Assembly: GCF_022370755.2 (NCBI RefSeq)
Contig: NZ_CP092364.2
Coordinates: 2,604,001 to 2,668,000, forward strand
Reading direction: 5' to 3'
From: Mycolicibacterium goodii
Lineage (GTDB): Bacteria > Actinomycetota > Actinomycetes > Mycobacteriales > Mycobacteriaceae
Length of the DNA stretch: 64,000 nucleotides
In this document: piece by piece, positions 4,379 to 5,613 of the stretch
How positions within the stretch are numbered: the stretch's first letter is position 1
How the letters are laid out: every line of letters begins with the position of its first letter
Position numbers and translations under genes: made by a program
Notes under the pieces: generated by a model
What the model was told of the DNA's origin: nothing
Databases searched by the model: none
The model's input: the letters and a program-made list of their open reading frames with translations, nothing else

Positions 4379-5517
4379 TGTGCTCCTACCGGGCTGGTGG
4401 CTGATGACTGAAGTTCGGTGGCGGCCAATTTGGCGCTGGCGGCGAGGAAGGCGTCGTTCTCGGCAGCGAGTCCCGTGGTGACGCGCAGGTATCCCGGGAT
4501 GCCGACGTCGCGGATCAGGACCCCGGCGTCGAGGTAGCGCTGCCAGGTGGCCGGTGCGTCGGCGAACTCGCCGAACAGCACGAAGTTGGCGTCACTGGGG
4601 ATGACCCGGAAACCCATGCGGCCCAGCTCGGCGCTGACGCGTTCCCGCTCGGCGATCAGCTTGGCAACACTGCCGAGGGTGTCGTCGGCATGCCGCAGCG
4701 CTGCGCGCGCCGCGGCCTGCGTGAGGACCGACAGGTGGTAGGGCAACCGCACGAGCAGCAGCGCGTCGATCACCGCTGGCGCGGCGGCCAGGTAGCCGAG
4801 CCGTCCGCCGGCAAATGCGAACGCTTTGCTCATCGTCCGGCTGACGACGAGCTTGGCCGGGTGTTCGTCGAGCAGTGCCACGGCGCTGGGCTGCGAAGAG
4901 AACTCGCCATAGGCCTCGTCGACGATCATGATGCCGCCGCGCATCGCGTCGAGCAGGCGGCGCAGATCGTCGAGCGGAACGCTCTGTCCGGACGGGTTGT
5001 TGGGGCTCGCGACGAAGACCACATCGGGGTCGCGCTCGGTGACCGCGGCCACCGCGACGTCGACGTCGAGACCGAAATCCTCTGCGCGTGCGGCCTGCAG
5101 CCATTCGGTCTGGGTGCCGTCGGAGATGATCGGGTGCATCGAGTACGACGGCACGAAACCGATCGCGCTGCGGCCCGGACCGCCGAACGCCTGCAACAGC
5201 TGCTGCAGGATCTCGTTGGAACCGTTTGCTGCCCAGAGGTTTTCGACACCAAGGGAGACGCCGGTGACGGCGCTGAGATACGCCGCGAGATCGGCGCGCA
5301 GTGCGACGGCGTCACGGTCGGGATAGCGATGCAGTTCGGCGGCGGCCTCGCGTACCGACGCCGCGACATCGTCGACGAGCGCCTTGGTGGGCGGATGCGG
5401 ATTCTCGTTGGTGTTCAGGCGCACCGGAACCTGCAGCTGCGGGGCGCCGTAGGGCGACTTCCCCCGCAGGTTCTCGCGCAGCGGCAGATCCGCCAACGTC
5501 ACCTTGTTCGCAGCCAT
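4375..5517 (-). CDS. hisC: Histidinol-phosphate aminotransferase
   Basis: 380 aa fold-type I PLP enzyme that transfers an amino group to imidazole-acetol phosphate. The PLP lysine is in [18 protein letters not shown] (near residue 230). NPSGQ and VDEAYGEF bind the cofactor. The start is taken as ATG 5517, with a strong Shine-Dalgarno AGAAGG 5-6 nt upstream; an in-frame TTG at 5541 would add 8 residues from inside the 32-bp repeat. The ATG shares its A with the stop of a 10-codon ORF, the last of three between hisD and hisC, so hisC translation may depend on re-initiation. Confidence 0.95.
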
Positions 5518-5613
5518 CAGTTCCTTCTGTTCTTCGCGCAAGCGCTCATCAGTTCCCTCTGTTCTTCGCGCAAGCGCTCATCAGTTCCCTCTGTTCTTCG
5601 CGCAAGCGCTCAT
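5517..5613 (-). other. Three chained 10-codon ORFs linking hisD to hisC
   Basis: Read on the minus strand, each unit is ATG AGC GCT TGC GCG AAG AAC followed by AGA GGG AAC (AGA AGG AAC in the last) and TGA. The three ORFs occupy 5613-5581, 5581-5549 and 5549-5517. Each TGA shares its A with the next ATG. The first ATG also shares its A with the hisD stop, and the last TGA shares its A with the hisC ATG. Each unit carries its own purine-rich AGAGGGAA or AGAAGGAA, which would serve as ribosome binding site for the next start. What is seen is an unbroken TGATG chain; that ribosomes use it is inference. The predicted peptides ([10 protein letters not shown] and a variant) have no known match. Confidence 0.5.
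5518..5613. repeat. 32-bp tandem repeat, three copies (hisD/hisC junction)
   Basis: Units start at 5518, 5550 and 5582 and end at 5613. The second and third are identical; the first differs by one base (T for C at its eighth position). The core is CTGTTCTTCGCGCAAGCGCT on the plus strand. The 32-bp period is not a multiple of three, yet it keeps the stop/start overlap because every unit brings its own ATG and TGA. The array fills the whole hisD-hisC spacer. Confidence 0.97.

Follow-up and report, generated by a model that had tools for sequence, protein, structure and literature searches.

The window analysed here is a stretch of 64,000 nucleotides from Mycolicibacterium goodii in which two minus-strand genes, hisD and hisC, are separated by a short tandem array. 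The upstream gene, hisD (5613..6956), and the downstream gene, hisC (4375..5517), were identified from their translations, which match the NCBIfam hisD model (460 bits, cut-off 244) and NF002877 (620 bits, cut-off 409), respectively. Read along the minus strand, to which all features of the locus described below belong, the spacer (5517-5613) runs from the hisD stop, set in a TGATG, through three 32-bp units to the TGATG that leads into hisC. The array ranks first of the 16 rows in a tandem-repeat listing of the window (score 195; runner-up 132). The first two units are identical, and the third departs from them at one base, which turns AGAGGG into AGAAGG; the sequence thus bears out the triplication reported in a preliminary description of the locus.

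Each unit forms a mini-ORF of ten codons, from ATG to TGA, and TGATG joins successive ones. The last base of the hisD stop (TGA, 5615-5613) also belongs to the ATG of the first mini-ORF (5581..5613). Units 2 (5549..5581) and 3 (5517..5549) follow, and the A that ends the TGA of unit 3 is also the first base of the hisC ATG at 5517. In units 1 and 2 a further TGA, also in frame, comes after the terminal one. The translations agree with the earlier account of an unbroken chain from the hisD stop to the hisC start. This chain is in part an automatic consequence of the length and beginning of the unit: because 32 leaves a remainder of 2 on division by 3 and the unit begins TGATGA, an in-frame TGA falls on the next start and copying one unit extends the chain, which survives any copy number, as had been claimed. 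Direct 4-bp overlaps between genes of the same operon, also pointed out before, occur at three junctions (4375/4378, 3758/3761 and 3144/3147). Within the units, a 20-bp core, GATGAGCGCTTGCGCGAAGA, was located by a core search of the genome, with a perfect first copy at 5595..5614 and further copies at 5563-5582 and 5531-5550. Each unit also carries a purine-rich stretch, AGAGGG in units 1 (5587..5592) and 2 (5555-5560) and AGAAGG in unit 3 (5523-5528), as a candidate ribosome site for the start that follows.

A dispersed repeat of stop-start junctions

The 6.74-Mb genome to which the window belongs holds 34 matches to the core at up to three mismatches, and the reversed core, used as a control at the same threshold, has 0. 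Perfect cores number 23 and are grouped in 10 arrays of 1-4 units each. Curated models name four of the junctions at which these arrays lie. Three are hisD-hisC, ilvB-ilvN and nuoD-nuoE; the fourth joins a Glp/MoeA-type gene to a downstream acetyltransferase-like gene, for which the sole model match falls below its cut-off. Since the core also lies at unrelated junctions such as ilvB-ilvN and nuoD-nuoE, the hisD-hisC array is not specific to hisC and consists of local copies of a short repeat found throughout the genus. Of 198 genomes sampled from the genus, 141 contain the core at up to one mismatch, among them those of M. peregrinum, M. houstonense and M. frederiksbergense. The number of copies at this threshold ranges from 0 (57/198 genomes) to 98, and the extent to which the repeat has spread differs strongly between lineages. 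When sampling was extended to the family, an exact match to the core was found in 9/15 members of the genus and in 0/186 genomes of other genera. Units are spaced 29-33 bp apart across arrays, most often by 32 bp (38/63) or 33 bp (21/63).

The habitat of this repeat is the stop-start junction of unrelated genes, in the orientation of those genes. In the numbering used for the pairing described below, the core occupies positions 0-19, the host bases before it are -1 and -2 and the tail bases after it are +20 and +21. In all ten arrays of the window's genome the stop of the upstream gene is the core's own TGA, as TGATG (-1) or ATGA (+2). A wider set of 90 was formed from these ten and the 80 perfect-core arrays among the matches listed in 12 other genomes. 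Under a longest-ORF rule the upstream ORF stops at -1 or +2 in 63 of these 90 arrays (13 genomes). When strands of the flanking genes were called by a codon-usage score, 80 arrays received an upstream call, which agreed with the strand of the repeat in 77 and opposed it in 3; 10 stayed uncalled. Among the 77 co-oriented genes, 65 stop at -1 or +2, that is, in the core's TGA, and 12 elsewhere. Downstream genes were called on the repeat's strand in 74 arrays and on the opposite strand in 1, leaving 15 uncalled. A held-out set was drawn from seven further genomes and comprised 58 arrays, 45 of them independent of one another and of the first set, 44 of these with a perfect first core; by the longest-ORF rule, 30 of the 45 stop at -1 or +2. 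Two individual loci show unusual forms. At L024 (C1:3167798, minus strand), a diverged single unit with 3 mismatches lies between genes named by eye as infB-like and rbfA-like, and at L011 (C1:1052543) the opening bases of the core (ATGAGCGCTTGCGCC) form the beginning of the downstream gene itself, which looks like the product of a fusion with a partial unit.

Orthologous junctions exist in filled and empty states. For instance, five of the 28 readable ilvB-ilvN loci are filled (30 sampled, 2 unreadable, one scored empty by eye); the empty form reads GCC-TGATGAGCAAC and the window's genome has GCC-TGATG-unit-unit ending TGATGAGCAAC. Another example is nuoD-nuoE, filled at 11 of 29 readable loci (30 sampled, 1 unreadable). 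Two of the filled nuoD-nuoE loci keep the host stop TAA (TAATG), and the first base of the core therefore belongs to the target there. The empty sites at both junctions mark where units entered.

At hisD-hisC itself, only eight of 80 named loci carry the core at the hisD stop or within 10 bases of it. A single unit is present in seven of these relatives and two in M. frederiksbergense. The nearest named rows, which include M. wolinskyi and M. frederiksbergense, reach a DNA identity of 84% at best and give no confirmation of the M. smegmatis group to which the preliminary description points. The comparison across relatives called for in the preliminary description shows that copy number does vary, with 0, 1 or 2 units against the three of the window as assembled. 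Neighbours of filled sites can be empty and read TAATG (L031, L032 and the M. peregrinum strain L034), and one strain of M. peregrinum (L028) has one unit where the other (L034) has none. On a tree of 78 rows, from which 3 loci were dropped and in which five loci with diverged look-alikes were scored as empty, the copy number has to change 9 times, which is no fewer than for shuffled labels. The empty and filled sites are most simply read as units that entered at the overlap and were then duplicated locally; as an alternative, units may have been lost in some of the empty lineages. The look-alikes at the five loci just mentioned (L074, L077, L088, L090 and L092) open in frame with hisC and give N-termini such as MSRLREEQ. 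They look as if a unit had turned coding, and would lengthen the N-terminus of hisC.

Reading frames and the predicted passage of ribosomes

The relation between the mini-ORFs and the downstream genes is similar across the family. In independent arrays with a scored downstream gene, the frame that would couple the mini-ORF to that gene is used in 45 of 59, and the other two frames in 12 and 2. Under a first-start rule, the stop of the mini-ORF overlaps the downstream start by 4 bases in 25/59 arrays and by 1 base in 11/59; when any in-frame start within +20..+50 is allowed, 38/59 have one of these overlaps. The fixed length of 32 bp could by itself yield such an overlap, and the 26 arrays in which a start could lie that far downstream were therefore set aside. 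The remaining 33 still favour the coupling frame (19/33, with one third expected; p = 0.004), as does their subset with a start within +20..+50 (16/28, p = 0.008). Arrays spaced by 33 bp (21/63 spacings) form one continuous ORF and no chain. At one locus, L016, three 33-bp units around oriented position 2065 (C1:4998465) continue in frame into a gene whose start resembles that of a lipoprotein, and each unit would add an 11-residue repeat to the downstream protein; like sites occur in L118 and L145.

A purine-rich ribosome site had been proposed for every unit. The region before the start is indeed purine-rich; a precise Shine-Dalgarno word in the tail is not borne out. In the 59 arrays, counted without de-duplication, that have a start between +26 and +40, predicted pairing of this region with the ribosomal-RNA tail averages -6.6 kcal/mol, compared with -3.8 for a coding control and -6.8 for shuffles of the region's own letters. 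A gain over shuffles is thus absent in these arrays, which rejects or at least weakens such a word. For the hisD-hisC units the duplex energies are -8.7 with AGAGGG and -6.6 with AGAAGG.

Re-initiation is the natural reading of the hisD-hisC chain, and the preliminary description was right to hold it. The overlaps (36/59) and the kept frame (19/33) support a re-initiation chain as a general design of the repeat family, as judged from sequence comparison. The explanation that we favour, with a probability of roughly three in four, is that the spacer consists of three tandem copies of the dispersed 32-bp repeat, likely inserted at the hisD/hisC overlap, whose mini-ORFs are predicted to pass ribosomes on. 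One unit would have entered the stop-start overlap and would then have duplicated in tandem to give three. Ribosomes finishing hisD would translate the mini-ORFs stepwise and then start hisC. The unit would persist since the coupling of hisD to hisC is kept and its cost is hence low. The same repeat lies at stop-start junctions of many unrelated genes, and it is therefore probably spreading DNA of little harm rather than a control built for histidine.

Complementarity between host gene ends and the repeat tail

The surprising feature of this family does not concern hisC; it is that the tail of the repeat matches the host gene's end. The new observation here is that the host dinucleotide just ahead of the core and the dinucleotide just behind it are complementary. 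In 88 first units, host -1 and tail +20 form a Watson-Crick pair in 82 (shuffled mean 41.4) and host -2 and tail +21 in 68 (shuffled mean 46.6). Pairing between -3 and +22 is depleted (6/88) and positions further out carry no pairing signal. After de-duplication to 73 loci, -1:+20 is paired in 67, with 5 additional T.G wobbles, and -2:+21 in 53; both pairs occur together in 47 loci, compared with 19.3 expected from 20,000 shuffles (maximum 33). The held-out arrays repeat this result: -1:+20 is paired in 40/44 with 3 further wobbles, -2:+21 in 28/44, and both in 24/44, compared with 9.4 expected (20,000 shuffles, maximum 20). Among the 11 filled nuoD-nuoE sites, the host dinucleotides CT, CC and GT, which occur in different species, are matched by tails AG, GG and AC in nine, where 3.45 were expected, a count reached by a fraction of 0.0007 of shuffles. 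The bases ahead of the core come from the host, since they recur at empty hisD and ilvB sites.

This complementarity points to a hairpin rooted in the last codon of the host gene. At the hisD-hisC locus a hairpin is predicted for the RNA of the first unit at 5593..5616, judging from the sequence, the covariation over loci and the RNA fold of the 24-mer. Its foot would be formed by two host bases and two tail bases, the fully complementary GT (5616-5615) and AC (5594-5593). When the 24-mer was folded as RNA with seven different foot dinucleotides, five gave the extended hairpin, which includes two tandem G.A steps, as the structure of minimum energy; with CT the extended form and the bare inner stem tie, and with AT the inner stem is preferred. 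DNA parameters do not favour the extended hairpin for the four feet tested with them. Covariation is confined to the two foot pairs among the matches listed, in which no compensatory changes were seen in the inner stem. Mean tail distance is 3.71 between copies with the same foot and 3.81 between copies with different feet, so there is no sign that same-foot copies descend from each other. We read the foot pairing, which is poorer in later units of arrays than in first ones, as set at or soon after insertion; compensation after insertion may also account for it, and the absence of tail lineages leans that way. It may serve insertion itself or a later function. A bolder form of this idea, which we regard as tentative and rather unlikely, is a minimal mobile element limited to stop-start overlaps: a hairpin of about 32 bases that would enter only at targets whose gene end pairs with its two-base foot, and whose own re-initiation ORF would sustain coupled translation.

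The repeat might instead have been kept for the hairpin as a structure in RNA or DNA, for example in the protection or processing of mRNA between genes, with the mini-ORFs incidental. The host-tail complementarity in two independent sets and the extended RNA fold of five of seven feet are what such a role would lead one to expect. We nevertheless think it improbable: downstream genes stay in the frame that couples them to the mini-ORF more often than chance predicts, the DNA parameters go against the fold for the four feet tested, and later units pair worse than first ones. In counts that were not de-duplicated, -1:+20 pairs in 79/99 later units (wobble included) compared with 59/60 first units of multi-unit arrays, and -2:+21 in 51/99 compared with 42/60. 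Known structured RNA families were also considered. A search of Rfam 15 gave no match above the gathering score; the only hits, two to archaeal C/D-box families, scored 14.9 and 13.9 bits where the cut-offs are 40 and 39, and a known family is rejected or weakened.

Known elements and rival readings

The favoured reading, a dispersed repeat inserted at gene overlaps, has its closest counterpart in the MIRUs. As described in part of a 2025 review, these are apparently mobile repeats of many mycobacteria that insert at start codons and carry an internal ORF coupled at -4 nt, with a likely minimal effect on the gene (PMC12548453, citing Supply et al., 1997). The section compared of another paper gives a unit of 40-100 bp and 41 loci in H37Rv (PMC2734929), and a passage of a third restricts MIRUs to M. 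leprae and the M. tuberculosis complex (PMC4213456). The 32-bp repeat resembles them in its dispersal over intergenic places and its tandem arrays (10 arrays in the window's genome; 141/198 genomes), in an internal ORF that overlaps the flanking gene by 4 or 1 bases (36/59) and in its insertion sites at start codons. It differs in its spacing of 29-33 bp as opposed to the 40-100 bp stated in that part of PMC2734929, in a genus-wide range as opposed to the one stated in the passage from PMC4213456, and in the host-matched foot, which is absent from the MIRU descriptions compared. The family thus appears to work like a MIRU; because its unit is shorter, its range wider and the comparison one of descriptions and not of sequence, it is not filed as one. 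None of the rnc-fpg spacers in 4 genomes was of MIRU size. In open-licence PMC papers, the core was not found as text, and no description of a MIRU-like Mycobacterium repeat was found.

Other systems share single features with the repeat. Termination-reinitiation coupling uses the same ATGA and TGATG overlaps, which the 32-bp repeat sets in series; in the portion of PMC6728339 compared they join two real genes, whereas in the arrays the repeat's mini-ORFs stand between the genes. Very short dispersed hairpins without genes of their own are also seen in REP/REPIN elements, which are mobilised by RAYT (Y1) transposases. The 32-bp repeat differs from these in being oriented with genes and sited at stop-start overlaps. 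The Y1 transposase domain PF01797 gave no match at E <= 0.001 in the window's genome (the control was positive in 5/14), and mobilisation by Y1/RAYT is rejected or weakened by its absence there.

The preliminary description had gone beyond the chain to a tunable ladder, in which copy number at hisD-hisC would be selected to lower or delay hisC translation through ribosomes lost at each re-initiation step. The chain is intact in every unit and relatives differ in copy number (0, 1, 2 or 3), as the ladder would need. Re-initiation is supported as a family-wide design, and it is the setting of hisC against hisD that finds no support: the identical element sits at unrelated junctions, few hisD-hisC orthologs carry the core, and its copy labels scatter over the tree no less than shuffled ones. 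A published case also runs the other way. In the part of that report compared, longer repeats of a M. tuberculosis MIRU-VNTR before fpg1 go with higher fpg1 mRNA (PMC2734929). A device specific to hisC is rejected or weakened by the junctions, the orthologs and the tree, and we consider the ladder decidedly improbable. Plain local slippage of a native hisD-hisC spacer, to which the adjacent identical units and the TGATG at every boundary would be suited, is refuted as a whole explanation by the genome-wide dispersal of the core, found at many unrelated loci and missing from most orthologous junctions examined; that the locus has nothing to do with the others is hardly credible, and slippage likely accounts for the step from one unit to three and not for the first unit.

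With the array read as inserted copies of a dispersed repeat, an apparent regulatory ladder of hisC becomes one site of a genus-wide family. Its many natural insertions and empty orthologous sites provide material for testing the passage of ribosomes through mini-ORFs between genes. That repeat tails match the ends of host genes is a specific clue to spread or retention, a point left open in the MIRU descriptions compared. The case also serves as a warning: between the genes of mycobacterial operons, mini-ORFs that are chained or in frame can stem from inserted repeats and need not be dedicated regulators. Elsewhere in the window there are perfect 24-bp tandem repeats at 59413-59478 (2.8 copies) and 19551-19599 (2.0 copies), unrelated in sequence to the 32-bp unit, and a 20-bp repeat, TGAACAGTGTTCAGGTTACT, at 15743-15780 (1.9 copies) with the inverted-repeat look of an operator.
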